Assembly: GCF_032854445.1 (NCBI RefSeq)
Contig: NC_088303.1
Location: forward strand, 2,053,501 to 2,117,500
Direction of reading: 5' to 3'
DNA length: 64,000 nt
DNA from: Liolophura sinensis
Lineage: Eukaryota; Mollusca; Polyplacophora; Chitonida; Chitonidae
In this document: in pieces, positions 7,101 to 63,190 of the stretch
How the letters are laid out: every line of letters starts with the position of its first letter
Numbering within the stretch: position 1 is the stretch's first letter
Position numbers and translations under genes: made by a program
Notes under the pieces: model-generated
What the model saw: only the letters and a program-made list of their open reading frames with translations
Database searches by the model: none
What the model was told of the DNA's origin: nothing

Positions 7101-10100
7101 TCCATTTTATGTAAATGTACCAGATTCTAAACAGTATTTTAAAGTATTTTTGTAAGTTGATGTTTTTTAAACTGGCTGTACTTACCATTGGGAAATTACA
7201 CATGTGAAAAATGGCTGTGCTTACCATTGTCTAGTTACCGATATGAAAACCGGCTGTAATTACCATTGTCTAGTTACAGATATGAAAACTGGCTGTGCTT
7301 ACCCTCAGGAAATTACAGATGTGAAAACTGGTTGCACTTACCATCATGTAGCTACAGATGTGAAAATTGGCTGTACTTACCATGGGGAAGTTAGAGATGT
7401 GAAAGTTGGCTGTACTTACCATGGGGAAGTTAGAGATGTGAAAATTGGCTGTACTTACCATGGGGAAATTAGAGATGTGAAAATTGGCTGTACTTACCGT
7501 GGGCAAGTTAGAGATGTGAAAATTGGCTGTACTTACCGTGGGGAAGTTAGAGATGTGAAAATTGGCTGTACTTACCGTGGGGAAGTTAGAGATGTGAAAA
7601 TTGGCTGTACTTACCGTGGGGAAGTTAGAGATGTGAAAAATTGGCTGTACTTACCATGGGGAAGTTAGAGATGTGAAAATTGGCTGTACTTACCATGGGG
7701 AAGTTAGAGATGTGAAAATTGGCTGTACTTACCATGGGGAAGTTAGAGATGTGAAAATTGGCTGTACTTACCGTGGGGAAATTAGAGATGTGAAAATTGG
7801 CTGTACTTACCGTGGGGAAGTTAGAGATGTGAAAATTGACTGTACTTACCATGGGGAAGTTAGAGATGTGAAAATTGGCTGTACTTACCGTGGGGAAGTT
7901 AGAGATGTGAAAATTGGCTGTACTTACCATGGGGAAGCTACAGATGTGAAAATTGGCTGTACTTACCATGGGGAAGTTAGAGATGTGAAAATTGGCTGTA
8001 CTTACCGTGGGGTAGTTAGAGATGTGAAAATTGATGTGAAAATTGGCTGTACTTACCATGGGGAAGTTAGAGATGTGAAAATTGGCTGTACTTACCGAGG
8101 AGAAGTTAGAGATGTGAAAAATTGGCTGTACTTACTGCGGAGAAGTTAGAGATGTGAAAATTGGCTGTACTTACCATGGGGAAGTTAGAGATGTGAAAAT
8201 TGGCTGTACTTACCGTGAGGAAGTTAGAGATGGGAAAATTGGCTGTACTTACCACGGGGAAGTCAGAGATGTGAAAGTTGGCTGTACTTACCATGGGGAA
8301 GTTAGAGATGTGAAAATTGGCTGAACTTACCGTGGGGAAGTTAGAGATGTGAAAATTGGCTGAACTTACCGTGGAGAAGTTAGAGATGTGAAAATTGGCT
8401 GTACTTACCATGGGGAAGTTAGAGATGTGAAAATTGGCTGTACTTACCATGGGGAAGTTAGAGATGTGAAAATTGGCTGTACTTACCACGGGGAAGTTAG
8501 AGATGTGAAAATTGGCTGTACTTACCATAGGGAAGTTAGAGATGTGAAAATTGGCTGTACTTACCATGGGGAAGTTAGAGATGTGAAAATTGGCTGTACT
8601 TACCGTGGGGAAGTTAGAGATGTGAAAATTGGCTGTACTTACCGTGGGGAAGTTAGAGATGTGAAAATTGGCTGTACTTACCGTGGGGAAGTTAGAGATG
8701 TGAAAATTGGCTGTACTTACCGTGGGGAAGTTAGAGATGTGAAAATTGGCTGTACTTACCGTGGGGAAGTTAGAGATGTGAAAATTGGCTGTACTTACCG
8801 TGGGCAAGTTAGAGATGTGAAAATTGGCTGTACTTACCATAGGGAAGTTAGAGATGTGAAAATTGGCTGTACTTACCGTGGGGAAGTTAGAGATGTGAAA
8901 ATTGGCTGTACTTACCGTGGGGAAGTTAGAGATGTGAAAATTGGCTGTACTTACCGTGGGGAAGTTAGAGATGTGAAAATTGGCTGTACTTACCGTGTGG
9001 AAGTTAGAGATGTGAAAATTGGCTGTACTTACCGTGGGGAAGTTAGAGATGTGAAAATTGGCTGTACTTACCGTGTGGAAGTTAGAGATGTGAAAATTGG
9101 CTGTACTTACCGTGGGGAAGTTAGAGATGTGAAAATTGGCTGTACTTACCGTGTGGAAGTTAGAGATGTGAAAATTGGCTGTACTTACCGTGGGCAAGTT
9201 AGAGATGTGAAAATTGGCTGTACTTACCGTGGGCAAGTTAGAGATGTGAAAATTGGCTGTACTTACCATGGGGAAGTTAGAGATGAATGGGAAGATGAAT
9301 ACAGGCATAGCTCTCATGAACCATTTCATGCCATGTGTCATCGTGTTTGCTTTTACGCCGTCAACTCCCACCTAACACAGACAAAATCATGATCATCACT
9401 CGCTGGATCGTCAGGTCCACACTCAAGAATTTATACCCAGATACCCAGATTCAAGTTTCAGAACTTAACATTTTGAAACTCTGATCACAAATTTACTGTA
9501 ATTCGCTGACCTTTTCAACTGATAGGCCGCAAAATTTGGCACTTTTTCATCAAATGATCGAAACTCAAAATGGTGCCTGAATGGTGGCACGGGTGATTGT
9601 TTTTCTCGTGTAGAGCAATGGCTAAACAAACATCACCACGGGAGTTCAACGCACATGCTTGGCGAGTAGAAAGTAGTCCAGTGGGTACAGGCTTGACAAC
9701 ACCTATGCTATATCCATGAATGAAAATGAAGAAAGTATCAATCTACAGTTTGTTTACAAACTCGGCTACAGTGGCTCGTTTTTAACAATGTTGTGTTCAA
9801 CATAAAAAAAGTCCAAAAAAAATCAAGTCTTAGAAACCACACAGCGAGTCGATCAGGTTACAGGCAACACACAACTACTTTTACTTCACGTTTCATCGCT
9901 TCACATGTTATCAAGAACGACCAAGGTCTGTCTTTAAATTTAGTGTCTCACTAAGATGTTCGCTGTAGCTCTACCTGCATATGTGTTGTTGGTTTGCTGC
10001 ACAAACTCTTACAGACGAGCGTATATACTAATAAACAGTTTGGCATCCGTCATTGCCCGTAGTGAACAAATGATAGTACGCAAAAGACAATGTGGCTCAG

Positions 10101-20400: not shown

Positions 20401-22667
20401 ACACCAAAAGAAAAGTTTATTTTGGGCCAGACCTTGAAAATACTTGAAGTTTTAATGCAGATAAACAAGCTACCAGAACATTATCCATAAATTTCTTCCT
20501 GAAGGTTTGTTCTTAAATTAAATGGTCCATAAGAGCTGAGAAAAAGGGATTAAGAGGGATTGTGGGAATCTAAAATTATACATGTACAAATTATCTTAAT
20601 GTTTAAACAATGAAACATAAATGGTTATGATTTTTAGGCCTGAACCAGGACCATATGTTGATGGAGAACGGGTACAGCTTGGAGGATTACATGGCATCCA
20701 GATGTAATTTAGGTATGTGGATGTAGCACGTAATATAGCGCCGTCATCAGCAAGGTGTTCCCGTTAGGCAGCACTTTTCCTGTAGGCATTGAATCTGGTC
20801 AACAGAAGTGAGTGTATTAAAACTTGCTTTTTGATGGTCTGGACTATCTGTTATTATGCTACTGCGTGGTATTTTACAGTGTTATTTAGAACATCGGCTT
20901 ATACTGTCATTAGATTCCCATGCTTCCATTATTCTTGTGGCCATGGCAACAATTTGTGGTCAATGGTGATCTCAAGTTCAGCAGTGGAGAGCACCTGTAG
21001 GAGAGATTCCACCCATATTCATTAGACACCATTGTACAAGTGAAAAACTATTGAATATGCACAACAATCAGATAAATAAATCAGACAAATGAAGTGGTGT
21101 GGTGTGGACTGAAGAAGATCTGAAAAAGTTGTTTTTGTTGTGTGTGTGTTTTTAGCCGTTTTTCTTGTTCAGAAGATCTGTGTTGGTGGTGTTCAGACTA
21201 TCTCTATTTAATGTAATTCTTTGTTTTGATTATGGTGGCGCCATGTTTTGTGATGTTCAGCTGCTCTGCTGTAGGTCTTTACTAAATGTCATTCTGTGTT
21301 TTGATTATGGTGTTGCTGTGTTTGGTGATGTTCAGCTGCTCTGCTGGAGGTCTTTACTAAATGTAATTCTTTGTTTTGATTATGGTGTTGCCGTGTTTTG
21401 TGATGTTCAGCTGCTCTTCTGGAGGTCTTTACTAAATGTAATTCTTTGTTTTGATTATGGTGTTGCAGTGTTTGGTGATGTTCAGCTGCTCTGCTGGAGG
21501 TCTTTACTAAATGTCATCCTGTGTTTTGATTATGGAGGTGCCGTGTTTGGTGATGTTCAGCTGCTCTGCTGGACGTCTTTACTAAATGTAATTCTTTGTT
21601 TTGATTATGGTGTTGCAGTGTTTGGTGATGTTCAGCTGCTCTGCTGGAGGTCTTTACTAAATGTAATTCTGTGCTGAAAATATCAATAAGGTTTTGCCAG
21701 GTTTGCATTGGTGTCTTCTGTTTGTGTTATCTGTTATCTTGTTCAGTTTGGTGTCTTCTGTTTGTGTTATCTGTTATCTTGTTCAATTTGGTGTCTTCTG
21801 TTTGTGTTATGTTATCCTGTTCAAATTGGTGTCTTCTGTTTGTGTTATCTGTTATCTTGTTCAATTTGGTGTCTTCTGTTAGTGTTATCTGTTATCTTGT
21901 TCAATTTGGTGTCTTCTGTTAGTGTTATCTGTTATCTTGTTCAAATTGGTGTCTTCTGTTTGTGTTATCTGTTATCTTGTTCAAATTGGTGTCTTCTGTT
22001 TGTGTTATCTGCCTTCTGTTTGTGATATCTGTTATCTTGTTCAAATTGGTGTCTTCTCTTTGTTTTATGTTATCTTATTCAAATTGGTGTCTTCTGTTAG
22101 TGTTATCTGTTATCTTGTTCAAATTGGTGTCTTCTGTTTGTGTTATCTGTTATCTTGTTCAAATTGGTGTCTTCTGTTTGTGTTATCTTGTTCAGATCTG
22201 TATTATATATCTTGCGTCATTCAGAAATTGCTGTGTAGGACAACTGTATTGACTATATGTTATATTGTTCAAGTGACGTTGAGAGATTAAGATGTTGCTG
22301 CACTTTGTGTTGTTCAGAAGATCTGTAATTATGTTATACTGTTCAGATGACCCTGATGATCTGAATAAGATATTACTGCACTTGGTGGTGTTCCGAAGAT
22401 CTGTAATAAATTTTATTCTGTGTTGTATTATTCATAGGGTGTGGAAAACATCCTACTGCATTTTGTGTTGTTGAAATATATTGAAAATCTGTACTAAATG
22501 GTAATTCTGTGTTCTGTTGTTCAGAAGATGCTGAAGATCTGTCCAGTGATGATGATGAGGAGGAAGATGGGTGTGTCCAGGGGCCGACAACACAGAGGTC
22601 GTATGACTCCTACCTGAGAAGTGTGAAGAGAGAGCTGGGAGGAAGCAGAGATGGATGTAAAACCTGA
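17465..22667 (+). CDS. SLC7A6OS: SLC7A6OS / Iwr1, RNA polymerase II nuclear localization protein
   Basis: Iwr1-family adaptor: in the known family it binds assembled RNA polymerase II and carries it into the nucleus through an N-terminal import signal. Exons: 17465-17626, 18815-19228, 19941-20301, 20638-20712 and 22525-22667 (TGA). Phases are consistent and predict 384 residues (human about 309). The N-terminus RVKRKRDEDPAEALILACKK is the family hallmark and contains the basic import signal. The conserved core FVYDLYYTN is in exon 3, followed by a strongly acidic stretch and NWRNDYPDEDPDFYE. The tail is again acidic (SSDDDEEED) and includes SYDSYLRSVKREL. An in-frame upstream ATG at 17414 would add 17 residues, but ATG 17465 matches the family start. 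Intron 4 is filled by degenerate repeats resembling the exon 5 acceptor. Confidence 0.93.
17835..17915 (-). mobile_element. SINE family III remnant
   Basis: Tail-like ATTGATGTTTTACGACGTAC and CAAGAATA joined directly to a head-like GCTAACCACCTCAGCCATGG. The middle of the element is deleted. It lies in SLC7A6OS intron 1. Confidence 0.55.
20935..21085 (+). mobile_element. SINE family III remnant, diverged
   Basis: Weak match to the family III body and tail in forward orientation, ending TACAAGTGAAAAACTATTGA and CAATCAGATAAATAAAT. It lies in SLC7A6OS intron 4, just before the acceptor-like repeats. Confidence 0.45.
21150..22524 (+). repeat. Two adjoining arrays with acceptor-like units, SLC7A6OS intron 4
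   Basis: From about 21190 to 21675 there are roughly seven units of 75 bp (GATGTTCAGCTGCTCTGCTG and TCTTTACTAAATGTAATTCT). From 21695 to 22200 there are about twelve units of 40 bp (GTGTCTTCTGTTTGTGTTAT and CTTGTTCAAATTG). Degenerate single units continue to the real acceptor at 22524. Copies of TTGTTCAGAAGATCTGT at about 21168 and 22310 resemble the acceptor plus start of exon 5 (TTGTTCAG then AAGATGCTGAAGATCTG), so part of the block seems derived from that junction. Confidence 0.8.
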
Positions 22668-28805: not shown

Positions 28806-29049
28806 ACTTTATTACATGCATCCTTGATTTTGTATGTTTTGCCAGAGTAGCATTTTAGTCATTTATGATCATTAGTATGACATGAAAACGGAAGCACATG
28901 TATACCTGACATGCTAATGAATAAAAACTATTCAAGAAAATGTGTGTAATTTGTGTGTAATTTTTAATTAAATATGATATTAAGTAAGACATTGGTGTCA
29001 GACTGAGTGTTCTTAACTGACGAATGTTCTACACCTTTTCCAAGAAGGT

Positions 29050-43300: not shown

Positions 43301-46174
43301 CGGTTTCTTGCCAGTCTCATGTTTATGATGTGTGCTTGCCCTGGGGCTGGCATCGCTAACGGTTTCTTGTCAGCTTCATGTTAATGATGTGTGCTTGTCC
43401 TGGAGTTAGCATCGCTAACGGTTTCTGGTCAGTCTCATATTTATGATGTGTGCTTGCCCTAGAGTTGGCATCGCTAACGGTTTCTTGTCAGCCTCATATT
43501 TATGATGTGTGCTTGCCCTGGGGCTGACATCGCTAACGGTTTCTGGTGGGTCTCATATTTATGATGTGTGCTTGACCTGAGGCTGGCATCTCTAACGGTT
43601 TCTGATCAGCCTCATATTAATGATGAATCACAGATAGCTGTGTCCAGTTGAATTTAGAGACTTCGACAAATTGTATTTACCACAGATACCTTCATTTATG
43701 TTTAATTGGATATAATGAAATTCATTTATTTAAACATTTGAACCATATTTATAGTTACTATGACGTCACATGGTCTCGTTTTATTGGCAATTTACAAAAT
43801 TCTAGTTGAACGTGTTATGTGATGTGGATCAATACATACAAAGAGCTATTCAGACTGTAAACATGCGGAGTAGAGCGGACTACGTTCAGGACAGGTGTTT
43901 CAGGACTAAAAATATTAGACTTTAGCCCAATGCCGATTTGTGAAACGGGTGCCTGGGCTACATGGCTGTTTGTCTATTATCTAGTATACTATATGACGCT
44001 ATAGAAATCTTTGATCAGTCCGTAGCACATGGTAACAGCTACAGGATAGGAATCAGTTCAGTCTGAACCAGCTGATGCTGTAGTAAAGAATCGCCAGATT
44101 GATAAAATAATTCCTGACTACGAGCTGCAAATCGCTATGATTATTTGGGACCAGAGGAATCATGTAAAGAAAGCAACAAGCAGTTGCCTATCAAGCAGTA
44201 ACTCTCAGATTTTAGGTAATGAAGCTAAGCTAAAGATGGATATAACTTAAATAGCAGCAACTTAATTTAGCTTGATAAAATAATACCAAAAGTATTATAC
44301 TTTTGAAACTGAAACTTCACCAAGAAGAAAGTAAGGAGTTTGTTATCGATGTTTTAGTTTTTCTCTTCTTGCAGTGCTAATATTGGTAATCTTAGCCAAG
44401 AACCAGAGCTGTGGACCATCGAGGTAGCTCCAGTGCCGGAAGAACCTAGGTCAAGATTAGAGAAACGGCAATTCCAGCCGGCCTCCTCGGCGTCTGCTGA
44501 TGTCTTTGTGCACGTTAACAGGTATATCAGCCACAGTGACAGTTTTTATTTCTTGTTGTACAGATTTTAAATACTCCAGTTATTTACGGTATTTACTGGT
44601 GTTTAACGCCGCACTCAATGATTTTGTACTTGACGAAAGTCAGGTTTTATGGGTTTAGGAAATAAACCACCTGCCTTTGGCAGATATCTAACAAACCTGC
44701 AGTGCTGTGTAGTATTCAGTTCTTCATGAGATTAGTATAGTGTCACCTGTTTCTTGTATTCGTGTCGCACATAGTTCCCTGGGATTCTAATTAACTTTGT
44801 CGTCAAAAAAAAAAACAAAAAACAAAAAAAAAACAAGAACGCATCAACAAAAAACCTGCACCCATGGCAGCCAAATTACATTCCTGACAGACATTGTGCA
44901 CTTCTGATAGACAAGTAGCATTCTTTGTGGACAAAGCATTTTTAATAGACACGATGAACTCCTATTGGACAAATTGCTCCCATGAATGATCAATCTGAAT
45001 ATTTTTGTCCTGTCTGCTTACTGTCCGGTCCCTTCTCAAAGTTTACACTGTCTTTACTCTACCACTGTGGCTCCCAGGAGGAGTCCTCCAAAATTCTCCC
45101 CACTGCCTTATTCCTGATACCGATCCGATGCTTTACAGAGGTTCAAGTGTCAAACCTAGATCTTTGCAAATCTTGGGTTCGCAGGGCACTGTGAAGAGTT
45201 ATATACAATTATGTATGTCCGTTGTTGGTAAGCCAACGTCGTAAACAGTGATACCAATGTGATGGACGTACTACGCCATGCCCAGATTTATCATTATTCT
45301 TAATTAGCATTGGACATAAATATCAATCGATTTGTTGTAGATACGAGCTGTTGGAAGTCGAAGAGATTCCTGAGAGGTTGAAATCCTCCGCACAAAGATG
45401 TAAAAGAATATCAGAGTTACCTGCCCCTGCTGATATCCCCGGCCTTCAGCATATCCTTGGGGATGAGCAGGGAGAACACTTTCCCATTTTCAACCACAAC
45501 ATGAAAAGTGATGTGGAGACGTTGTTCGCTGGTTAGTAATGTCTATCATCATAGCAACCCTTTGTGTTTGGTAAATAAATGCGGCTAGCCCTTGAATTGC
45601 GCTAAACGGGCACAGCCCTAGAATTGTTCTCGCCGGGCATAGCCCTCTTTATGCCTGTCTAATGCAAACCTACATATGCTTTCATGTGTGATGATTGTCA
45701 TGATACACAAACAGTGAGTGGCAGGCACAATATACAAGACTACAGCATACAGTGTAAAACCAGAGCAGCGACAATAGTGTAATAATTGCCAAATAGCCAA
45801 AGTTTAACTTAACCGGTGAAATCCGGGATCTTGTTAGTTTCCATCAGTTAGGGTTTTATTCTTCAACTGTTCACGCAAATGCTAAAAAGGCAGCAACTGA
45901 CACTCCCCTAGCACCGAGGATTAGTAAACAGAAGAAGGTAAAAGGTGCCTTGATGTTAACGGCTAAAATACTCCACAAGGCCGTTATTACTGTAGGCTCT
46001 GAATACGCTATTTGTTTATCTATCCAAACTCTTCGAAGCTGTGTTTGAATTCTTTGACAGTTCTTGATACTTACTTTCTTGTTTTCAGTTATTGTTGATC
46101 TGACAAAGGCTTTGGTGTATGTCTACTCGAAGAACCCCAAACTGGGGCCGTCCAACATTCTGCCGATCTCGTGA
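34398..46174 (+). CDS. tan-like / acyl-CoA:6-APA acyltransferase-like hydrolase, gene 1
   Basis: Member of the C45 (acyl-CoA:isopenicillin-N acyltransferase) family of Ntn hydrolases. The family includes insect Tan, which cleaves beta-alanyl conjugates of dopamine and histamine. Exons: 34398-34457, 37285-37383, 38452-38550, 39134-39235, 40158-40299, 40924-41022, 42738-42837, 44375-44521, 45341-45531 and 46089-46174 (TGA). All phases fit, giving 374 residues; Drosophila Tan is similar in size. Motifs: IPELYVTGTHFELGRAI at the start, HYPQYVEELRGMAEATGVPF in exon 3, and Gly109-Cys110 (NEGCTD), the self-cleavage site whose Cys becomes the nucleophile. Exon 5 has LGHTED; exons 5/6 have AGMLPGNTFG; exon 7 has PRQVVNRAMLA; the C-terminal half has LQHILGD and VYSKNP. 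The exon 5 donor is a weak GTTTGC. The true substrate cannot be inferred. A partial paralogue lies downstream at 51385. Confidence 0.9.
35955..36230 (+). mobile_element. SINE family II, 5'-truncated
   Basis: B-box region CTGGGATCAAACCCAG, then the family II body (GCTTGGCGCCCAGCACTGAG, TGTCTGGTGTCTTCGACATG, CAGCACTTTGGCGACATGGA) and a 3' end near TAAAGTACGACACAAAACCC. It lies in intron 1 of tan-like gene 1. Confidence 0.75.
37718..38090 (+). mobile_element. SINE family II, full length
   Basis: tRNA-like head with an A-box-like GGTACCGTAATGGTTAG and a B-box-like CCGGATCAAATCC. The body has TGTCTGGTGTCTTCGGCGTG and AGGACTTTGGCGGCATTGAC. The 3' end is TGACTGAAAACTTGTTCAGT with ACGACGTAAAAACAC. 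That 3' end is shared with SINE family I and the LINE. Intron 2 of tan-like gene 1. Confidence 0.8.
38225..38475 (+). repeat. 38-bp array of the exon 3 acceptor, tan-like gene 1
   Basis: Seven copies of ATTTATATATGTCCACAG plus TTGTACGATGGTTATTGTGT in tandem. The last copy is the real acceptor (38449-38451) and exon 3 start. Five of the upstream copies keep the AG and the exon-like TTGTACGATGGTTA; the first two are eroded. Three units (114 bp) would keep the reading frame. Confidence 0.93.
39440..39695. repeat. 23-bp minisatellite, about 10 copies
   Basis: Units of AAAACAGTGTGGTGGTAAAA with variable spacing, in intron 4 of tan-like gene 1, about 200 bp past the exon 4 donor. No splice junction is included. 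Confidence 0.85.
39783..40035 (-). mobile_element. Two SINE family III copies, tail to tail fragments
   Basis: A short 3' tail (39783-39850, TTTGATTGGTGTTTTACGCC) is followed by a longer copy from 39905 with AGAATGTTTCACTTATACGA and CAGAGCCCAGGGTAGACCCA. Both are in reverse orientation and truncated before the tRNA head. Confidence 0.75.
40735..40840. repeat. 36-bp tandem triplet
   Basis: Three copies of GGGATGAGGCACTCTTGAGG plus GTAGTTAAGTGTTAAT in intron 5 of tan-like gene 1. Confidence 0.85.
41205..42125. repeat. Approximately 80-bp compound minisatellite
   Basis: Units combine GGTCACCAGTATCAGACTAG, CTTGTGGTGCAGTGTCTAGC and AAGCCGTTGGTAGCCAGACA. Some units lack the last block. Stretches around 41580-41800 and 41850-42090 are nearly identical, showing a recent large duplication. 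It is intron 6 of tan-like gene 1, distant from both exons. Confidence 0.9.
42360..42495 (-). mobile_element. SINE family III, 3' half
   Basis: Reverse orientation with TTGATTGGTGTTTTACGCCA, AGAATATTTCTCTTATACGA and CGGCGGCCAGCATTATGATG. It is truncated inside the body. Intron 6 of tan-like gene 1. Confidence 0.8.
42798..43625 (+). repeat. 59-bp array of the exon 7 donor, tan-like gene 1
   Basis: About 14 units of GTGTGCTTGCCCTGGGGTTG, GCATCGCTAACGGTTTCT(G/T)G and TCAGTCTCATGTTTATGAT. The first copy is the real exon 7 end (donor GTCAGT at 42838). About 40 bp of exon, the donor and about 19 bp of intron are repeated down the intron. Most copies keep a GTCAG donor. The period is not a multiple of three. 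Confidence 0.93.
43630..44374. other. Intron 7 of tan-like gene 1, no feature seen
   Basis: AT-rich intron sequence ending in the acceptor TTCTCTTCTTGCAG at 44374. No repeat family or gene is recognised. Confidence 0.6.
44570..44710. mobile_element. Possible SINE tail fragment
   Basis: GGTGTTTAACGCCGCACTCA followed by GTCAGGTTTTATGGGTT. This resembles the tail of the local SINE families, with a body shared weakly with sequence near 12400 and 14470. Family not assigned. Intron 8 of tan-like gene 1. Confidence 0.4.
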
Positions 46175-48289: not shown

Positions 48290-49560
48290 AATATGCAAGA
48301 GATGTCAGATTTTCATGTACCAAGTGACACTGGTTTTCCGTTTGACACAGAAAATGTAGTTGACCAAGGGACGCGGGACAGGGTACATCATACCCAATTT
48401 TATCATTTATTTGAACGCTGTGCTGAAGAATTTTTCATTTATAAGACGATGACTAGGTTTACAGGCGAAGGAAACCCGAGATCATAGCGAAATGTAAATA
48501 AACAGATGACAATGGTTTTATGTACCGAAGAGAATGTAAGTAACCAAGTGACAGTGGTTTCCCGTATACCACAGAGAATGTATCTACCCAAGTGATGCTG
48601 GTTTCCCATATAACACAGAGAATGTAAGTAACCAAGTGACACTGGTTTCCCGTATACCACAGAGAATGTAAGTAACCAAGTGACGCTGGTTTCCCGTATA
48701 CCACAGAGAATGTAAGTAACCAAGTGACGCTGGTTTCCCATATAACGCAGAGAATGTATGTACCCAAGTGACACTGGTTCCCCATATACCACAGAGAATG
48801 TAAGTAACCAAGTGACGCTGGTTTCCCATATAACACAGAGAATGTAAGTAACCAAGTGACACTGGTTCCCCATATACCACAGAGAATGTAAGTAACCAAG
48901 TGACGCTGGTTTCCCATGTACCACAGAGAATGTAAGTAACCAAGTGACGCTGGTTTCCCATGTACCACAGAGAATGTAAGTAACCAAGTGACGCTGGTTT
49001 CCCATATACCACAGAGAATGTAAGTAACCAAGTGACGCTGGTTTCCCGTATACCACAGAGAATGTATGTACCCAAGTGACGCTGGTTTCTCACATACCAC
49101 AGAGAATGTATGTACCCAAGTGACGCTGGTTTCCCATATACCACAGAGAATGTATGTACCCAAGTGACGCTGGTTTCCCATATACCACAGAGAATGTAAG
49201 TAATCAAGTGACGCTGGTTTCCCATATATCACAGAGGATGTATGTACCCAAGTGACGCTGGTTTCCCATATACCACAGAGAATGTAAGTAACCAAGTGAC
49301 CGTGGTTTCCCGTATACCACAGAGAATGTAAGTAACCAAGTGACGCTGGTTTCCCATATACCGCAGAGAATGTAAGTAACCAAGTGACGCTGGTTTCCCA
49401 TATACCACAGAGAATGTATGTACCCAAGTGACGCTGGTTTCCCATATACCACAGAGAATGTAAGTAACCAAGTGACCGTGGTTTCCCATATACCACAGAG
49501 AATGTATGTACCCAAGTGACGCTGGATCACTATTTACCACAGATAATGTAAATAGCCAAC
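48290..49560. repeat. 44-bp minisatellite, about 23 copies, each with AG...GTAAGT
   Basis: Units GTTTCCCATATACCACAGAG plus AATGTAAGTAACCAAGTGAC and GCTG. Two versions occur: AATGTAAGTAACC and AATGTATGTACCC. The first 200 bp are degenerate. Several overlapping minus-strand open frames (up to 345 codons) arise only from the periodicity. Confidence 0.92.
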
Positions 49561-49850: not shown

Positions 49851-49859
49851 GCTCACGGA

Positions 49860-50689: not shown

Positions 50690-50845
50690 AATTCTCATAA
50701 TCATTTATTTCATTCATTTCACTAATTTTTATACCATGTTTTGCGACATCGGCCAGCATTATGATGGGAGGAAACCCACTATCATCCGCAAGCGGCTGCA
50801 AGACCTTCCCACGTTCGACCAGGGAGGAAACCAACATGAGCTCAT
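50690..50845 (-). mobile_element. SINE family III, diverged
   Basis: Contains CGGCCAGCATTATGATGGGA, GCGGCTGCAAGACCTTCCCA and GGAGGAAACCAACATGAGC in reverse orientation. A separate B-box-like palindrome CCCGGGATCAAACCCGGG lies at about 50991. Confidence 0.6.
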
Positions 50846-51384: not shown

Positions 51385-54300
51385 ATGATTCCATACTTCA
51401 CTGTATCCGGCACATATTACCAGGTTGGCAAGCAGATCGTAAGTACACAGGTCTTCCGTCCTTCCCAAACTCAATCCTGGGGGACTCAATCCTTCGCTCA
51501 CCTCCGCTATATCACCCATGATCATAGGTCTGTAGGGCTGTGATTACGTGTACTATCACAGCCCTATATTGTTCCATATGCTTGCCTTGAACACCTCAGT
51601 ACTTCCCTCGCTGGCTTCAGTATACTACTACAAGGCACCAAATAGGCGATGCACGTAGTCACAGTCGTCTCAGCTATCAATACCAGGTTGGTGTTCCCAT
51701 GTGTCATTACTAGTAAATCCACACCAGCATGAAACTATAGTGGAAACTATATTGCCTAGGCTGGTAAGGTTGCATAGTAGACACCGTCCGATTGCTGTCT
51801 GCTCCGGTGATCTTACTCTCACAGCCCCATCAGGCAGAGAGTACTCTCCGATCTACTCATGAATCGATATGCTCATTGTGAACAGTCTCTGATGGAGATA
51901 TTGCATGAACCGTAAAGTGTTTTTTTAGTGGTCAATATAGCTTGCACCCGAGTCGCCATATAGCGAGAGAAAAAGTGCCCCATTATAGGGAAGGCGGCGT
52001 TAAACACCACGGAAACATTCTGGAAGAGAACGAAAGGTTTAGGCCAGCGGAAAATGTCAAAGCCCACAACAGAAATAATTTTGCTGACAAAACGGGCCAA
52101 AAAAGGAACAAATTTTGTTCAAACTGGACAAGACGCACGACACTAAAACCTATATCCTGCAATTTGTCTCGGTGAAGTCTAGTATCGCCACAAAGTTTCA
52201 ATGCAGAACCAACCGTTGTGGACAAATGTCCGGAAAACTGCATGATTGGTAACAGGGTGACAGGCTTTAACACACTAGCACAATGTACTCTAAGTCGTCA
52301 CACAGCAATTTCCCTCCTAAAAACTTGAACAGGCGTATGTTGTGGATTATTCCATAGGGAAAGAAGTTCCGTGAGCTGATCGTGGATTACTATGGGGTAG
52401 ATGAGGACTTCAAAGATGTCGTGTTTCCTTTCATTCAGACGAAAGCCGGAGAGAAAGTAAGCGAATATGACAGACTGATAATATCCTCAAATATCTCGAT
52501 ATGTTGCAGGACATCCTAGACTAATGTATTGGCAGATTTCGCCTATTTTTATTGGGCAATGAGCGATGGCGTCACAAATCTTTCACTGTTACATGTACAC
52601 TTTCCTCGGCTATGAAATGAATGCTATGCGCAATACAGGCGTGCTATTTACACGGTGAGGCAGGTATGAATTATTTTCAGTAAACACGGTATATGTTTAT
52701 TTTTTATATGACTGAAGTTTTACGCCGTACTGAAGAATATTTCACTTATACAACGGTGGCCATCATGGTGGGCGGAAACCAGACATAGCCAAAGGGAAAC
52801 CCACGACCATCCGCAGGCTGCTGACAAACATTCTCACCGTACATGAAGCCAGTATGAGCGGATTTGAACTCACTTTGACTGCATTGGTGAGAGAATCCTT
52901 GGTCATTGTCCCGTGATAGCACACTAACAAGATTTCTTGAAGCATCAACTCAAATCAGTAAAATCAAACTGTTGCCGACTTATAAATTTGAACTCTGTCC
53001 CTATTTCAGGTATACATGGATTATCTCAACAACGTAGAAACTCTATATCCACAGTATGTGTCCGAGATGCAGGGCTTGGCTGACGGAGCCGGGCTTACCT
53101 TTAAACAGGTAGATAAAATGTACAGGTAGATACAGTCTTCTGTACACCTCTCCAGCTGACAAACAGGTAGATACAGTGTACTGTACATCTCTCCATCTGA
53201 TATACAGGTAGATACAGTGTACTGTACACCTCTCCAGCTGATATACAGATAGATACAGTGTACTGTTCACCTCTCCAGCTGATATACAGGTAGATACAGT
53301 GTACTGTACACCTTTCCAGCTGATATACAGATAGATACAGTGTACTGTTCACCTCTCCAGCTGATATACAGGTAGATACAGTGTACTGTACACCTCTCCA
53401 GCCGATATACAGGTAGATACAGTGTACTGTACACCTCTCCAGCCGATATACAGATAGATGCAGTGTACTGTACACCTCTCCTACTGACATACAGTGTGCT
53501 GTACCCCTCTCCAGCTGACATACAGGTAGATACAGTGTACTGTACCCCTCTCCTACTGACATACAGGTAGATACAATGTACTGTACCCCTCCCCAGCTGA
53601 TATACAGGTAGATACAGTGTACTGTACACCTCTCTTACTGATATACAGGTAGACACAGTGTATTGTGCCCCTCTCCAGCTGACATACAGGTAGATACAGT
53701 GTACTGTACCCCTCTCCAGCTGACATACAGGTAGATACAGTGTACTGTACCCCTCTCCTACTGACATACAGGTAGATACAGTGTACTGTACCCCTCTGCA
53801 TACAGGTAGATACAATGTACTGTACCCCTCCCCAGCTGACATACAGGTAGATACAGTGTACTGTACACCTCTCTTACTGATATACAGGTAGACACAGTGT
53901 ATTGTGCCCCTCTCCTACTGACATACAGGTAGATACAGTGTACTGTACACCTCTCCTACTGACATACAGGTAGATACAGTGTACTGTACCCCTCTCTTAC
54001 TGATATACAGGTAGATACAGTGCACTGTACACCTCTCTTACTGATATACAGGTAGATACAGTGTACTGTACACGCCTCCTGCTGATATACAGTTAGAGTG
54101 AGTGAGTGAGTGCTTGGGGTTTAACGTCGTACTCAACAATTTTTCAGTCAAATGACGACGAAGGAATCATTAGGGTGCATGCACGTGTAATGTGCCTCCT
54201 TGTTGCAGGACGGATTTCCACCGCTCTTTTATTTAGTGCTGCATCACTGAGACGACTTACCGAAGGCAAGTAAGCCGCCCCGCCCGAGCCATTATACTGA

Positions 54301-57300
54301 TACGGGTCAACCAGTCGTTGCACTATCCCCTTCATGCTGAACGCCAAGCGAGGAAGTTACAACTTCCTCTTTTAAAGTCTTAGGTGTGACTCGACCAAGG
54401 ATTGATCCTGGATCTACCGGTCCCGAAGCGGACGATATACAGTTAGATACAGTGTACTGTACACGTCTCCTGCTGATATACAGGTAGATACAGTGTACTG
54501 TACACTTCTCCTACTGATATAAAGGTAGATACAGTCTATTGTACATCTCTCCTGCTGATATACAGGTAGATACAGTGTAGTGTACACCTCTCCTACTGAT
54601 ATAAAGGTAGATACAGTGTACTGTACACCTCTCCTACTGATACAAGGGAGAGAGGTCGGACGGGTTGTTTGGTCGCTCAGTCTGTCTCAGTTAAATTTCA
54701 GCTGAAATTTCAGCTGAAATTTAGCGAATTTATCGTTGTTTTTGCAATCAACTGTTGCACCGAGTTGCGAGGATTAGTCGCGTATACTTTTCGTTGTAGA
54801 ATTTCATATTTTTGACCAGTTTATAGACATTTTTGTCTTAGATTCGTGTGGCTGTTTGGCCGGCCTGCGTGGCTTGGCTCAGACACCAGTTGTCGTGTGT
54901 CCTGTGTTACAGCGACTATACGGGTTAAGGCATAGGACAGTGAACGAGGTCAGCCTGCCCAATCGAGCTTTATTCAATCCCGGGCAAGCGGAGCAGACAA
55001 AGAAAAGCGTTTAAGCTGCTTGTTGTAGGTTCGTGCATCCTTGCACGAAGTTTAGTTGTTCTCTTGGCTAGTGGGTGAGAGGGGTTGTAAATAGAGTTAG
55101 TCCCTGGCTGGCCGTGGAACTAGCCTTTGTGCTCTCAGCTTTTGTTTAGTTGTCACCCAGTCTGAAGGTGGTGCGACATTATGTTCTGTCGCTCTTAGAG
55201 GCAGGACGTATTCACTAGCCTCTCTGTAAATAGCCTGTACATAGTTTAGTGCATTTCCACTTTGTAATATCGTATTTGTTTTGCACTCAGCATCCACACT
55301 GTGCCAAACGCATAGTTGTGGTCCTCTCTTTAGGGTAGTAGTTCTCGCCCTGGCCCACAGTGTTGTGGGCAGGGCGAGTAAATGGACCCTTAAGCCTTAA
55401 GCTTGTAATACAGGGAGGTGTACAACCGGTTGATGTATATAATCGGCTAAAGGAGTTAGTGGGGAGTGGGCCTAATGTCTTAAAGGGACTAATCAATGTC
55501 TCTAGAGATGTCTGGAATGTTACAGTGGCTACGCAAACTGTGAAGGAACAGCTGTTGACTAGCGGCTTCTCATTCAAAGGGGTAGATTGTCCAATATATG
55601 ATGTGGAGGAGCAAAGGGTCCTGGTTAGATCTCGATGTCCGATCGAGGTGCCCGATGACACTATTTGAGGTTTGATGTCCCGGCATGGCACGGTCCATCA
55701 CGTCAGCCGGGAACATTACCTTTTTGATAGGTCACTTGAGAATGGTATGCGCCGTATTTACATGAGTGGTGTGACCGAGATCATTCCACAATCAATTTCG
55801 GTTGGGAATTTTAGAATTCCTTTGTGGTACAGAGGTCAGGTCCGTGCCTGTCACATCTGTGATAGCGCAGAACATTTCAAGGCCGACTGTCCTTTAAAGG
55901 ATAAATGCCTCAAGTGTAAACAGGTAGGCCACTTTCAAAAGGACTGCCTGTTGAGCGATGAAAATGACAATGGCGATAATGACTATAACGATTGCAATGA
56001 TAATGATGATAAAGACAGTAATGTTTATGAAGTTGAAGGTGACAATAAAGATGAGAATGAAGGTCGAGGAGATGATGACGGTAATTATAGTGAGGGACAT
56101 GGGGATGATATGGAAATTGGGATTTCTGGCGAGTCTGTTCCTTCCAGTCAACAAAATAAGGGGACTTTGGATAACTCTGCTGCTGACAACGAGGAAGCTG
56201 GAGAGTGGCAAGTTGTCACTAACTCCATGTCCTCTAGAAAAAAGATTCGAAATAAGGGCATTGGTGCTGCAAATAAGGTCAGGAAGTTAAGCAAATCGCC
56301 AGTAGTAGGTGGGCCCCAGAGCCTTTGCGAGGCATCTCAGACGTCAAGTAGCCCGGAGTGGGTTGTCAGTATGAGTCAAATCTCGAATACCTCATCACCC
56401 CCTAGATCGTCAGAAATTTCGAATACTACGCCATCCTGCATTAAGGAGACACAATCCAGTGCCGCGACGCCCTCCAAAGGTGCACTTGGTAAGAGCCCGT
56501 CCATATGGGGTAGCACGTTCAGCCCTGACCCGTCTACAATGTCACAGTTATACACTAGAGATATAGCAGATTGCCTTGATCCTCAGGGAAGCTCTCAGCA
56601 ATCTGATATGTCTGCGGCTGGTGGAGAATCCAATATGGAGGAATCTCTTTCGGAAATGGATGCACCCGAAGACTTGCCTGCCTATACCAATGGCAAGGGT
56701 GAGGTCTTGGTACTTGTCTCAACATCTCTGGGGTCGTATTATCGCACATTGCGACGAGACTCTAAAGTTGACAAGGTTAAAAAGCAGAGGAAGTTGATAA
56801 CGTTGTCACAGGAGGATTTTGCTGAGCGTAGGGCAGCGATGTATAAGAAGTCCAGGAAAAAGAAAAAGAATAAATAAATATTAATAATGGCTACTACAAA
56901 GATCTTACAGTGGAACTGTAGAAGATTGAGTTGTAACCTCGCAGAGCACCAGATGTTAGCTCAAGACCTCAATCCTATAGCTTTTAGCTTGCAGGAAACT
57001 CTGATGACTGATCCTAGTTATCAATGTCGAGGTTATGTATCTCATCACGCTGTTGCCACGTCTACGAATGGAAAGGCATCAGGGGGTTCTTCTCTTTTGA
57101 TTAGGCAGGGTGTAATGCACAATAGAATGGCACTGAACACCGATTTGCAGGCGGTGGCGGTGCGTATCACACTGGGTATAGTATTAACAATCTGTTCTAT
57201 TTATATACCACCTTCTTCTACTCTTCACCAACAAGAGCTGCAAAATTTATATGATCAATTACCTAAACCGTGTCTTCTTTTGGGTGACTTTAATGCCCAT

Positions 57301-60300
57301 AGTGTTCTCTGGGGTGACTCTAAACGTAACCAGAAGGGCTCTGTATTGGAGGATTTTATATCTAATAACTCTCTATGCGTCTTAAATGATGGCACACATA
57401 CTTACCTTCATCCTGCAAAGGGCATTTATTCGGTCCTTGATTTAGCTCTGGCTGATGCAGGGCTAAGATGGGAATTCAGCTGGAGCGTCCATGATGATCT
57501 GTGCGGAAGCGACCACTTCCCCACCATACTTACCCTTGAGGAGCCGGTATCTTCCTCCCTTCCACGCTTTAATTATGATAAAGCAGGCTGGCCCCGCTTG
57601 TCTGTTCTGTGTGGTGAAACACTTACTAGCGACCTTTTTCTTGATGCAGTTGATCCTATCCAGTTATTCTCGGATCAGCTAATTGATGTAGCCTCCAAAT
57701 GTATCCCGAAATCTTGTGCGGTTCCCCGTATTAAGAAACCGTGGTTCACGGAGGACTGTAAACGAGCTAGGCGTTTCAGGAAACGTGCTGAACGCGTGTA
57801 CCGATGTAGACCATCTCCCGGTAATTTAGACGATGTTAGGCGTACTCGAGCTAAAGCCCGTAGGACTATCAAACAATCCAAACGTGACTCTTGGTTTCTA
57901 AGATTAATCATCGTACCCCTATGTCAAAAGTCTGGAATATGATCCAACGCATCAAAGGCAAGGGATCCATTGTCACTGTCAATCATCTTAAAGACGGGAA
58001 TAATTCTTTGACAGAAAAACTTGACATAGCCAATAGGTTGGGCGCTTCTTTTGCGCACCATTCGTCTTCAGATAATTACTTGCCTCAGTTCCAGCGTAAC
58101 AAGGAACGGACCGAGGCAAGTCCTCTTGATTTTACATTCTCAAATGAAGAATCCTATAATGCTACATTTTCTCTACATGAACTATCCGCATCCCTGAGCA
58201 AGGCCCATGACTCAACTCCAGGGCCAGATGATATCCACTATCAGCTTTTACGACACCTTCCAGAATCTTCCTTGAGGGTGCTTCTTGGAATTTTTAATAC
58301 CATTTGGATTTCCGGGAATTTTCCTGCCTCATGGCAAAACGCTATTATTGTCCCCATCCCAAAGCCCGGAAAGGATTCTACCGATCCAAATAACTATCGT
58401 CTTATTTCCTTAACCAGTTGTGTATGCAAGACTATGGAGAGGATGATTAACGATCGCTTGGTTTGGTTTTTGGAGACTAATGAGTTGATAAGCGACATTC
58501 AATGTGGATTTCGAAAGAATCGCAGTACTGTTGATCGCCTTGTTCGTCTAGAATGTGTTATTAAGAACGGTATCGTTAATCGCTCCCAGTTGAAGAAACT
58601 CAATACTGTACATCACCAGGCCCTACGGTTGTGCTTAGGTGCTTTCTGTACCTCTCCTGTGGAGAGTCTGTATGTTGAGGCAAACGAGCCTCCCTGGAGC
58701 TTCGAAGAACTAAACTATCCTTACAGTATATCACCAAGCTTAGAGCCAATCCATCCAACCCAGCCTTTGATTGTGTCTTCCATCCGGAATTTGAAGACTT
58801 ATATGCTCAGAAGCCATCCATTGTTCCTCCACTGGGTGTCCGCATCCAGGAACATGTGCAAGCAGCTGGACTTGGGCTGGATACTATCACCCCCATACGC
58901 ATCCAGGAAGATCCACCGTGGTTATGTCCTGAGCCTCAGGTTGATACCTCGCTCTCCTCCCTGAAGAAATCTTCCACCAACCCTTTAGTATACCAGCAGG
59001 AGTTTTAGTAATATGTGTTCAAAGTATCCATTTTATCACCGCATATTCACTGACGGTTCCAAGAATGATGATGGAGTGGCTTCTGCCGCTTTCCTTGGGC
59101 CCAGAACCATTTCACCTCGGTTTCCAAATTCCTGTTCTGTATTTACTGCGGAAGCCAAGGCAATTTTGTGCGCACTTCGGTCCATTCCAGAGCTAGGAGG
59201 TCGCAGATTTCTCATCTGCTCTGACTCCCTCTCCTGCCTCCAGGCAATTCGGGCTAGTTCGCCTGTACATCCAGACATTCTGTCTATCAGGGAGATGTTT
59301 AAACGACTTAATGAAGATTTTATCATTGTCTTTTGTTGGGTGCCCGGGCATATGGTATCCCTGGGAATACTGCTGCAGATGAAGCCGCGAAAGCGGCTTT
59401 GCATTCCGTTACTACCCAAACTGACGTTCCATATTCGGACTTGCGTTCACTTATTTGCTCCTATATCAAGCGCTTGTATCAGGCTCAATGGGGATGACCA
59501 GACAACCAACAAACTGCATGATATTCGTCAGTTTGTTGGTCCAGCGCCTTCCCTTTCACGGCATCGTCTCCGCTCTTGCATTTTGAGGTGTCGTATCGGT
59601 CACACACGTGCTACGCATGGGTATTTGTTGAAAGAAGATGCTCCTCATTGCTTTGCTTGTGATCAACGGTTCACAGTCAAGCATATATTGCTTGACTGTG
59701 GTGACTTTGCTCCTTTACGAGATTCCTTTTATCACGTGAGCTCTCTTTCAGAACTTTTCAGTTCTGTAGAAAGTGATACTATTTTTGATTTTCTCTCTAC
59801 CATTGATATGGCAGGAAAGCTGTGATTTTAAACTACCGTCTGTGTTTGTTATGTGACTTCTGGCGTCCTTTTTTTACTGAATAGTAAATGAATTATCCGT
59901 AGTAGATCGACTACTTGACGCTTTATTGTCGCGATAAAACTGAAATATTGTTGAAAGCGACGTTAAAAACTTTCACTCACTCACTCACTCCTACTGATAT
60001 AAAGGTAGATACAGTGTATTGTACACCTCTTCTACTGATATACAGGTAGATACAGTGTACTGTACACCTCTCCACCTGACATACAGGTGGATACAGTATA
60101 CTGTACACTTTTACTACCGATACGCAGGTAGATACAGTGTAATGTACACATCTCTTACTGATATACAGGTAGATACAGTGTACTTTACACCTCTCCTACT
60201 GATATAAAGGTAGATACAGTGAACTGCGCACTTCTCCCACTGATATACAGATAGATACAGTGAATTGTACATCTCTCCTGCTGATATACAGGTAGATTCA

Positions 60301-61289
60301 GTGTACTGTACACTTGTCCAACGGATATATAGGTAGATACAGTGTATTGTACATCTTTCCTGCTGATATACAGGTAGACACAGTGTACTGTACACCCCTC
60401 TTACTGATATACAGGTAGATGCAGTGTACCGTACATCTCTCCTGCTGATATACAGGTATATACAGTGTACTGTTCACTTCTTCTACTGATATACAGGTAG
60501 ACACAGTGTACTGTATACCTCTCCTACTGTTATACAGGTAGATACAGTATACTGTATACCTCTCCTACTGATACACAAGTAAACACAGTGTACTGTACAC
60601 CTGCCCCACCGATACAGGTAGTGAAAGCTAGCAACATGTAGCGATATTGGGCGCTAACTTAGCTGTTCATTCATGGATAGATGACTGAATTTTACGAACG
60701 AGAAAAAAACTAAGGACATAGCGTGCAATAAAACGCCTATTTTCAATAAACATATGTTTCGGCTCGCCTTTCAGTGTATAGTTAACCACCACAGCTGGTA
60801 ATATTTCTGCTCGACACGAGGTAACCCTCCCGTAATGAATAATCCGTGAAATTAATTGCACAAAATCAAGATAAAATATTAGCTGCATGAAGTTTGTTGA
60901 AATATGAAAACTTTTAGATGTTTGTTATTGTCTTTTCTTTTAATTCAAATTTATTATATCAATATGGCGTGAACGCATGAATAATAAAACACACAAATAT
61001 AGACATGAGTCACGAGGTAACACTCATTCGAGTAGATCAGTTTCGAGAGCTATAGATGGAGTGCCACCTCCACGAAGGTGGTGGTTTGTACGTTTTAACC
61101 ACCCACGCTCACTCCCAATGATTAACACCTTCTATTCCAGATTCTGTTTAACCCCATACTCATTAATGTCATTTGTATGTTCAACAGGTCTTTACGATGC
61201 ACCTGTCACGTGAGATTCGCATCGGTGTGGCAGTGAAGCAGGAATGGGGCTGCAGTGACCTGTTCATTAACTACCCTAAAACAGGACAG
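51385..61289 (+). CDS. tan-like / acyltransferase-like hydrolase, gene 2 (first four exons)
   Basis: Tandem paralogue of the gene at 34398. Exons found: 51385-51438, 52358-52456, 53010-53108 and 61188-61289, all phase 0, encoding 118 residues. Exons 2-4 have the same lengths (99, 99, 102 bp) and phases as in gene 1. Matching motifs: PYFTVSGTYYQVGKQI, ELIVDYYG, LYPQYVSEMQGLADGAGLTF and the catalytic Gly105-Cys106 in QEWGCSDLF. The start codon is placed by alignment with gene 1. Intron 3 is about 8 kb and holds a 41-bp donor array, a SINE and a LINE in sense orientation. Exon 4 is followed by a 92-bp donor array. Remaining exons are not found before 64000. They may lie beyond the window, or the copy may be incomplete. 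I cannot tell whether it is expressed. Confidence 0.8.
51540..52357. other. Intron 1 of tan-like gene 2, no feature seen
   Basis: No repeat family or protein similarity is recognised. Overlapping open frames at 51873-52273 (75-96 codons) look random. Confidence 0.55.
52690..52930 (-). mobile_element. SINE family III, nearly complete
   Basis: Reverse orientation: TGAAGTTTTACGCCGTACTG, AGAATATTTCACTTATACAA, ACCCACGACCATCCGCAGGC, then a B-box-like GATTTGAACTCACTTT and a head ending near GTGATAGCACACTAACA. Intron 2 of tan-like gene 2. Confidence 0.8.
53100..54642 (+). repeat. 41-bp array of the exon 3 donor, tan-like gene 2 (first segment)
   Basis: Units CAGGTAGATACAGTGTACTG plus TACACCTCTCCTACTGATAT. 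The first copy is the real exon 3 end and donor (AAACAG then GTAGAT, 53108/53109). About 29 units lie here and about 15 more after the LINE (60001-60625). It is interrupted by a SINE (54098-54433). The unit includes only the last few exon bases, so it is mainly intron plus donor. Confidence 0.93.
54098..54433 (-). mobile_element. SINE family I inserted into the 41-bp array, with target duplication
   Basis: Starts GTGAGTGAGTGAGTGCTTGG and ends at a truncated head (CCCGAAGCGGAC). It is flanked by the direct repeat GATATACAGTTAGA at 54084-54097 and 54434-54447. The shared T (array consensus is CAGGTAGA) shows this is a true duplication of one variant unit rather than array periodicity. It covers most of the family, lacking the first part of the tRNA head. 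Confidence 0.92.
55360..56877 (+). pseudogene. LINE ORF1, nucleic-acid-binding gag-like protein, one stop
   Basis: Two open segments, 55360-55668 and 55672-56877, lie in the same frame and are separated by one TGA at 55666-55668. The first has a weak RRM-like alternation. The second has two zinc knuckles of the form C-x2-C-x4-H-x4-C (CHICDSAEHFKADC and CLKCKQVGHFQKDC), an acidic Asn/Asp-rich linker and a lysine-rich C-terminus. ORF1 proteins of this group coat the LINE RNA. Without the single TGA the frame would be continuous, so the defect is a point nonsense change. Confidence 0.85.
56887..59825 (+). pseudogene. LINE ORF2 remnant: endonuclease, partial RT, RNase H
   Basis: Segment 1 (56887 to about 57940) is an APE-type endonuclease: LQWNCRR, a QETLM motif, GDFNAHSVLWG and CGSDHFPTIL. 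A one-base loss near 57895 shifts to segment 2 (57891-58964), which has RT motifs: STPGPDDIHYQLL, IVPIPKPGKDSTDPNNYRLI and CGFRKNRSTVD. It then jumps directly to the post-RT block VHHQALRLCLGAF. The catalytic aspartate region (xADD) is therefore deleted. Segment 3 (59013-59825) is RNase H (FTDGSKND, TAEAKAI, CSDSLSC, WVPGH) with a further frameshift near 59360. It ends in a cysteine-rich end CFACDQRFTVKHILLDC. ORF2 begins 9 bp after the ORF1 stop. Confidence 0.88.
60001..60625 (+). repeat. 41-bp donor array, second segment after the LINE
   Basis: About 15 more units of the array that starts at 53100, more diverged (GTAGATACAGTGTACTGTAC with changes). It is separated from the first segment only by the LINE. 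Confidence 0.9.
60626..61187. other. End of intron 3 of tan-like gene 2
   Basis: Unique AT-rich sequence ending in the acceptor GTATGTTCAACAG at 61187. No gene or known repeat seen. Confidence 0.6.
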
Positions 61290-63190
61290 GTGAGTAGACG
61301 GTACTGCACGGTTTGCAGGTGAGGGGCTAGGGATAGGGCTGCAGTGACCCATTCAACTACCCTAAAGCAGGAAAGGTGAGTAGACGGTAATGTGCAGTTT
61401 GCAAGGGGAGTGGCAAGAGATGGGGCTGCAGTGACCTGTTCACTAACTACCCAAAAGTCAAAGGACAGGTGAGTAGACGGTTTGCAGAGGAGGGGCAAGG
61501 GATGTGGCTACAGAGCCTGTTCTTGAACTACCCTAAAGTCAAAGGACAGGTGAGTTAACGGTACTGCACGGTTTGCAGGTGAGGGGCTAGGACTGGGGCT
61601 GCAGTGACCTGTTCATCAACTACCCCAAAGTCAATGGACAGGTGAGTAGACGGTACTGCATGGTTTGCAGAGGAGGGGCTAGGGATAGGGCTGCAGTGAC
61701 CTGTTCAACTACCATAAAGCAGGAAAGGTGAGTAGACGGTAATGTGCAGTTTGCATGGGGAGTGGCTAGAGATGGGGCTGCAGTGACCTGTTCATTAACT
61801 ACCCCAATGTCAATGGACATGTGAGTAGATGGTACTGCACGGTTTGCAGAGGAGGGGCTAGGGATGGGGCTGCAGTGACCTGTTCATTAACTACCCTAAA
61901 GTCAAAGGACAGGTGAGTAGATGGTACTGCACGGTTTGCAGAGGAGGGGCAAGGGATGTGGCTGCAGTGACCTGTTCATTAACTACCTTAAAACAGGACA
62001 GGTGAGTGGACGGTACTACACGGTTTGCAGAGGAGGGGCTAGGGATGGGGCTGCAGTGACCTTTTCATTAACTACCCCAAAGTCAAAGGACAGGTGAGTA
62101 GATGGTACTGCACGGTTTGCAGGTGAGGGGCTAGGAATGGGGGTACGGTGACCTGTTCATTAACTACCCCAAAGTCAAAGGACAGGTGAGTAGATGGGTA
62201 CTGCACGGTTTGCAGAGGAGGGGCTAGGGATGTGGCTGCAGTGACCTGTTCATTAACTACCTTAAAACAGGACAGGTGAGTAGACGGTGCTGCACGGTTT
62301 GCAGAGGAGGGGCTAGGGATAGGGCTGCAGTGACCTTTTCATTAACTACCCCAAAGTCAAAGGACAGGTGAGTAGATGGTACTGCACGGTTTGCAGGTGA
62401 GGGGCTAGGAATGGGGGTACGGTGACCTGTTCATTAACTACCCCAAAGTCAAAGGACAGGTGAGTAGATGGGTACTGCACGGTTTGCAGAGGAGGGGCTA
62501 GGGATGTGGCTGCAGTGACCTGTTCATTAACTACCTTAAAACAGGACAGGTGAGTAGACGGTGCTGCACGGTTTGCAGAGGAGGGGCTAGGGATAGGGCT
62601 GCAGTGACCTGTTCAACTACCATAAAGCAGGAAAGGTGAGTAGACGGTAATGTGCAGTTTGCATGGGGAGTGGCTAGAGATGGGGCTGCAGTGACCTGTT
62701 CATTAACTACCCCAAAGTCCATGGACATGTCATTAGACGGCGCTGCACGGTTTGCAGAGGAGGGACTAGGAATGGGGCTGCAGTGACCTGTTCATTAACT
62801 ACACCAAAATCAATGGACATGTCATTAGACGGCGCTGCACGGTTTGCAGAGGAGGGACTAGGAATGGGGCTGCAGTGACCTGTTCATTAACTACCCCAAA
62901 GTCAATGGACAGGTGAGTAGACGGTACTGCATGGTTTGCAGAGGAGGGGCTAGTTATGGGCTACAGTGACCTGTTCATTAACTACCCCAAAGTCAAAGGA
63001 CAGGTGAGTAGACGGTGCTGCACGGTTTGCAGGTGAGGGGCTAGGAATGGGGCTACGGTGACCTGTTCATTAACTACCCCAAAGTCAATGAACAGGTGAA
63101 TGGACGGTACTGCACGGTTTGCAGAGGAGGGGCCAGGGATAGGGCTGCAGTGACCTGTTCATTAACTACCCCAAAGTCAATGGACAGGGG
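61240..63190 (+). repeat. 92-bp array of the exon 4 donor, tan-like gene 2, about 21 copies
   Basis: The unit holds the last roughly 47 bp of exon 4 (GGGGCTGCAGTGACCTGTTC, ATTAACTACCC...GGACAG), the donor GTGAGTAG, and about 40 bp of intron with CACGGTTTGCAGAGGAGGGG. The first copy is the true exon end (61289). The codons for the catalytic Gly-Cys (GGC TGC) lie inside the repeated part. The donor is kept in most copies; some later units carry CATTAG instead. A 286-bp block (62057-62342 and 62343-62628) is itself duplicated. Confidence 0.93.

Follow-up and report, generated by a model that had tools for sequence, protein, structure and literature searches.

Why the ends of minisatellite arrays should repeatedly coincide with exon-intron boundaries is the question raised by a 64,000-nucleotide stretch of the genome of the chiton Liolophura sinensis (NCBI RefSeq assembly GCF_032854445.1, contig NC_088303.1, positions 2,053,501 to 2,117,500 of the forward strand), which is referred to below as the window. 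A preliminary description of this DNA had noted five arrays, in OXA1L and in two genes designated tan-like 1 and tan-like 2, whose repeat unit contains a splice site and which abut the real junction, together with weaker forms in OXA1L and SLC7A6OS, and had proposed that some process in this lineage tandemly duplicates such boundaries. A tandem repeat over an exon-intron boundary is known at a single locus in human CBS. In four arrays of the window, and in six found beside kinesin exons in a separate sample (L029, L032, L059, L060, L071, and L076), the unit holds both exonic and intronic sequence over a real junction.

OXA1L was identified by a match to PF02096 (Pfam, 3.4e-27), and the array at its exon 6 donor has a unit composed of the final 19 exonic nucleotides and ∼20 intronic bases. 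The array exists and crosses the junction as first described, and column analysis of 54 ungapped copies revealed an intact GT in every one (54/54). It is in frame and partly open, an open frame of 421 amino acids passing through just over half its length; a unit of 13 codons can be open to this extent by chance. Dispersal of the unit in the manner of a transposable element family was not found; a 301-base query, with very common words skipped, gave 11 matches, all within the array itself. At exon 7 of the same gene, the supposed weaker form proved to be a duplication that takes in the acceptor and 49 exonic nucleotides but comprises two copies only.

The tan-like 1 and tan-like 2 genes match the NCBIfam model C45_proenzyme at 1.5e-9 and 7.6e-11, respectively, values below the curated cut-off that were obtained with some of the exons submitted; searches of Pfam with single exons or joined pieces returned nothing useful. 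Three of their arrays, at the exon 3 acceptor and exon 7 donor of tan-like 1 and at the exon 4 donor of tan-like 2, were present as described and contain exon and intron sequence across the junction, with 14, 39, and 50 exonic nucleotides (the last per unit), respectively. AG was intact in 7/7 copies of the first, and GT was intact in 10/14 copies of the second and in 13/13 ungapped copies found of the third. The fourth array, at the donor of tan-like 2 exon 3 (an exon homologous to exon 3 of tan-like 1), also exists and keeps GT in 19/22 copies of its first part, but only ∼5 exonic nucleotides resemble the unit; it begins at the donor without copying the exon and is borderline. A long interspersed nuclear element (LINE)-type retrotransposon, with zinc knuckle, endonuclease, reverse transcriptase, and RNase-H-like frames, interrupts this array at window positions 54643-59987. 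Coordinates are collected in Table 1.

Table 1. Exons, junction arrays, and associated features of the window. A slash marks the junction between exon and intron; TRF, Tandem Repeats Finder.
Feature	Position	Strand	Unit, copies, or splice site	Basis
OXA1L exon 7	6559..6721	minus		reading, edges rechecked
Two-copy duplication over OXA1L exon 7 acceptor	6673..6875	minus	102 bp	TRF, reading
Array over OXA1L exon 6 donor	7169..9285	minus	39-bp unit, ∼54 copies	TRF, column analysis
OXA1L exon 6	9267..9371	minus	donor ATG/GTAAGT	three-frame reading, edges rechecked
Two-copy repeat upstream of SLC7A6OS last exon	22256..22407	plus	78 bp, short of exon	TRF, reading, edges rechecked
Array over tan-like 1 exon 3 acceptor	38219..38465	plus	38-bp unit, 6.5 copies	TRF, reading, column analysis
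tan-like 1 exon 3	38452..38550	plus		reading, edges rechecked
tan-like 1 exon 7	42738..42837	plus	acceptor TCCAG, donor CTG/GTCAGT	reading, edges rechecked
Array over tan-like 1 exon 7 donor	42799..43625	plus	59-bp unit, 14 copies	TRF, reading, column analysis
tan-like 2 exon 3	53010..53108	plus	donor ACAG/GTAGAT	reading, edges rechecked, homology
tan-like 2 exon 3 array, first part	53121..54097	plus	41-bp unit	TRF, reading, column analysis
tan-like 2 exon 3 unit between first part and LINE	54434..54642	plus	41-bp unit	TRF
LINE-type retrotransposon reading frames within the 41-bp array region	55669..59822	plus		zf-CCHC, endonuclease, RVT_1, RVT_3 domains
tan-like 2 exon 3 unit beyond LINE	59988..60602	plus	41-bp unit	TRF, reading
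tan-like 2 exon 4	61188..61289	plus	donor ACAG/GTGAGT	reading, edges rechecked
Array over tan-like 2 exon 4 donor	61240..63188	plus	92-bp unit, ∼20 copies	TRF, reading, column analysis

SLC7A6OS, identified by a PF08574 match (Pfam, 5.7e-7), did not bear out the weaker form attributed to its exon 5 acceptor. The 78-bp repeat ends before the last open frame (22485) and does not extend to the exon, although the unit and the likely acceptor both contain GTTCAGAAGAT. The overall observation of arrays at junctions therefore stands for five arrays, of which the tan-like 2 exon 3 array is borderline, whereas only one weak case out of two is upheld.

Arrays of this anatomy already have a name, contrary to the initial impression that no named class existed. 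In the “mirages” of amphioxus, the boundary between an exon and an intron, be it a donor or an acceptor, has been duplicated in tandem in the manner of a minisatellite, with many signal-bearing copies; they are reported from Adh3, the globin genes BflGb6 and BflGb9, TnC, and PGBD5, together with regular splicing of the mRNA and instability in length (PMC3087553, PMC3902484). In both animals the unit straddles the junction. The chiton arrays differ in belonging to another phylum, in copy number (∼54 in OXA1L compared with the 3 and 6 reported for BflGb6), and in a bias toward donors, described below. A literature search that ran without most subscription journals yielded no report recognized as mirages outside lancelets. 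In anatomy, the chiton arrays are mirages in a new phylum, and their scale is beyond that described in the literature examined. Tandem copies of AG/GT are also the starting point of a model of intron gain by tandem genomic duplication (the AGGT model), in which such copies could come into use for splicing (PMC3443670); that model yields a new intron, whereas the chiton arrays flank existing junctions.

Tandem arrays are abundant in this DNA. TRF returned 65 rows for the window, and in a contiguous 260 kb that includes it, 113 arrays with a period of at least 10 cover 77.3 kb (30%); for another chiton genome, the TRF value is 9.21% (PMC11545220). Arrays so numerous must land on some junctions, and a null expectation was therefore needed. 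In the window, four donors were hit when 0.30 was expected (P = 2.8e-4), as were two acceptors, the two-copy case included, when 0.28 was expected (P = 0.033); the hits and the totals of 16 donors and 15 acceptors were counted by eye. Because the window had been chosen for its arrays, more weight is given to an independent sample of kinesin exons.

The kinesin sample consisted of 72 exons, each examined with 300-500 bp of flank on either side, out of 132 exon matches, the remaining 60 lying outside the sample. The first 51 were taken roughly in order of E-value, together with neighbors, and rows with in-frame stops (one excepted) and some very long frames were skipped, whereas 16 of the last 21 contained in-frame stops; by the author's count, such stops occur in ∼43 of the 132 rows overall and in 17 of the 72 used. 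Twenty-five arrays lay beside the 72 exons, and those with a period of at least 20 covered 6.9 of 68.6 kb. Under a null in which array ends are spread evenly across intron sequence and junction-spanning positions, 1.02 donors and 0.74 acceptors were expected to be hit. Six of the 72 donors were hit (P = 6.6e-4), five of them crossed (L029, L059, L060, L071, and L076) and one abutted (L078) by an array whose unit matches only ∼5 exonic nucleotides, so that the count is five without it. Three of the six came from the first 51 exons and three from the last 21. A single acceptor was crossed (L032; P = 0.52), and donors and acceptors combined gave P = 0.0023. At seven further loci (L030, L037, L058, L061, L064, L074, and L075), arrays lay near junctions but not on them. 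The earlier expectation that junction arrays exceed chance is thus upheld for the donors of both the window and the kinesin sample and is not upheld for kinesin acceptors, which fall at expectation. One further donor-spanning array was encountered at L012:5698-6632 on the minus strand, where an apparent first coding exon reads ATGTCTGACAAG...AAAG/GTAAGT.

The association was also approached through splice-site motifs in the whole genome (609.5 Mb in 632 contigs). A tandem donor motif, defined as three exact occurrences of AGGTRAGT at a spacing of 28-58 bp, gave 2054 matches, compared with 1126 for the reversed motif, 851 for the permuted motif, and 1986 for the reversed permuted motif; as a single motif, the donor and its reversal were about equally frequent (50,967 and 47,888). 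A single long array yields dozens of matches, and arrays were therefore counted instead, by eye, on C1:0-5.47 Mb, where the listings overlap. This count gave 19 arrays for the donor, compared with 5 and 4 for the reversed and the permuted motif, respectively (binomial P = 0.0066 against the reversed motif and 2.1e-4 against both controls). The first ∼100 of the 2054 tandem donor matches fall in this interval, which lies at one chromosome end and makes up <1% of the genome, suggesting that arrays crowd there. The acceptor motif TTTTCAGR gave 755 tandem matches compared with 329 for its reversal. Within the 260 kb, sequence outside arrays already held more copies of the acceptor motif than of its reversal (37 versus 17), which was not so for the donor (15 versus 16); after a rough correction for this background, the excess in arrays is about fourfold for the donor and about twofold for the acceptor. 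A weaker sign came from 81 array units of the 260 kb, of which 5, two of them belonging to the window, contained a donor-like site scoring at least 6; random windows gave 1.33 on average, with 95% of values between 0 and 3.

Column analysis of ungapped copies was carried out for 12 junction arrays. GT was intact in 54/54, 10/14, 19/22, 13/13, 9/9, 8/8, 4/4, 6/7, 1/2, and 2/2 copies of the donor arrays and AG in 7/7 and 6/8 copies of the acceptor arrays; as described for mirages, the signal persists in many copies though not in all. The splice-site columns were no more conserved than other parts of the unit: in these 12 arrays, 32%-100% of unit windows of equal size were conserved at least as well. 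The exonic share of the unit, entered by hand for 13 arrays, ranged from 0.07 to 0.71 and was compatible with a uniform distribution (Kolmogorov-Smirnov P = 0.19). The variable exonic share and the unremarkable site columns point to ordinary tandem duplication at variable places rather than to a cut at the junction.

The chiton arrays are probably mirages in origin as well as in anatomy, i.e. minisatellite-like arrays that grew from a unit lying by chance across an exon-intron boundary. Short tandem arrays abound in this genome, and a duplicated segment (30-125 bp among those observed) would at times include a junction; its copies would then expand into the intron while the exon-adjacent copy was held in place by coding sequence. 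The duplications themselves would arise by ordinary slippage or repair, as the junction falls at no set place within the unit. Splicing would normally take the exon-proximal copy and leave the mRNA unaltered, a plausible reason for the tolerance of such arrays. The donor excess may be partly a matter of survivorship, given that an additional donor downstream would be transcribed later than the true one, whereas an additional acceptor upstream would be met before the true one and should do more harm, which could by itself yield a donor bias. On this reading, junction-spanning arrays arise often and are tolerated. Of the process first proposed, the repeated tandem duplication of boundaries is retained, having been seen beyond the window and, at donors, in numbers above the uniform-seeding null; a special mechanism that targets junctions is no more than a possibility in view of the density of minisatellites, the chance-level kinesin acceptors, and an exonic share without register.

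Several points weigh against this reading. The split of the kinesin test into donors and acceptors was made post hoc. Exon edges in that sample were corrected by eye in five exons, and those of 20 loci in the last set were taken from match ends or by eye. At L071, L076, and L078, the family match read through stops at the array, and the use of rows with stops may favor such exons. Genome-wide motif totals are heavy-tailed, so that only the array-level count separates the donor from its controls, the raw donor total not being separable from every one of them (1986 for the reversed permuted motif); that count covers one chromosome end and leaves out the reversed permuted motif. Acceptor arrays are in excess as well, with 14 versus 3 for the reversed motif on C1 and 9 or 10 versus 2 on C2:0-16.08 Mb. 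Finally, cut-offs of 5, 7, and 8 for donor-like sites give 6, 2, and 1 array units compared with means of 3.07, 0.65, and 0.35, all within the random range.

A possibility entertained only tentatively is that donors actively seed arrays, in that transcription or splicing would bring about breaks or slippage and so make 5′ splice sites the birthplaces of minisatellites. It would account for a kinesin excess at donors and none at acceptors and for the approximately fourfold excess of the donor motif in arrays. The units, however, begin and end at variable places relative to the junction, arrays are somewhat enriched in acceptor motifs too, and survivorship predicts an identical donor bias. We hold with equally low confidence the stronger statement that the chiton 5′ splice site is a preferred minisatellite birthplace and that, across the genome, several per cent of introns carry ready-made donor arrays.

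Pure chance, in which dense arrays would strike junctions no more often than other positions and there would be zero excess, is doubtful. The coverage of 77.3 of 260 kb, a kinesin acceptor count close to its expectation, the similar totals for the donor and reversed permuted motifs, an excess of donor-like units at one of four cut-offs, and the loose register of units at the junction are all in keeping with it, but the six kinesin donors against 1.02 expected and the 19 donor arrays on C1 against 5 and 4 are not.

That the extra donors are functional, having been selected for stronger splicing or for protein variants, appears very improbable. OXA1L could be read in this way, with a 39-bp unit that is a multiple of 3, a frame that stays open through slightly more than half of the array, and GT intact throughout. 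The unremarkable splice-site columns tell against it, as do the unit lengths: those of 39, 63, and 30 bp are divisible by 3, but 10 of the 13 (38, 59, 41, 92, 104, 64, 125, 73, 34, and 71 bp) are not. Together, site columns and unit lengths argue against strong selection on the copies. The copy numbers of arrays are difficult to assemble. An artefact of long-read assembly is nevertheless scarcely credible, as the copies differ among themselves, the exon-proximal ones carry coding sequence, unrelated genes on C1, C6, C8, C9, C10, and C11 show the same pattern, and the assembly was built from HiFi reads (PMC11068029).

The assembly has 28,010 protein-coding genes (PMC11068029), and if the kinesin rate of 6/72 donors held for all of them, donors would be duplicated into arrays in thousands of introns, a figure extrapolated from a single family. 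What had been a curiosity of a few amphioxus genes would then be a common state in a second phylum, providing a natural experiment with many cases on the choice that the spliceosome makes among near-identical donors and on whether introns are gained from arrays. Were donors also birthplaces of minisatellites, these arrays would be a lasting source of new introns and altered exons. Chiton gene models and repeat catalogues may be in error; words beginning with “tandem” are absent from the main text of the genome paper (PMC11068029), though arrays make up 30% of the 260 kb.

Myosin matches on C8, C3, and C11 lie in part within open frames of 1002-1870 codons, and some are at least 1 kb apart within one frame. 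A de novo exon finder trained on the kinesin exons was dropped, as it gave most of the OXA1L and tan-like exons already known a score around zero or lower.

Two arrays with donor-like units were not counted as junction arrays. One, at L009:4842-6150 just past the right end of the window, has 25 copies of a 52-bp unit with CCA/GTAAGTACAG, and its exon is unconfirmed; the other, at L024:5436-5738, begins ∼70 bp beyond the exon. Within the window, a very even 4.7-kb array between SLC7A6OS and the tan-like genes (24132-28808) consists of 39 copies of a 120-bp unit with 97% matches and lies largely inside a single minus-strand open frame of 1385 codons. Related units make up a 38-bp array at 46563-48217 and a 44-bp array at 48529-49559, the 44-bp form having a donor-like GTAAGT. 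A single 29-bp unit forms two inverted arrays ∼100 bp apart, at 31740-31824 and 31930-32078.

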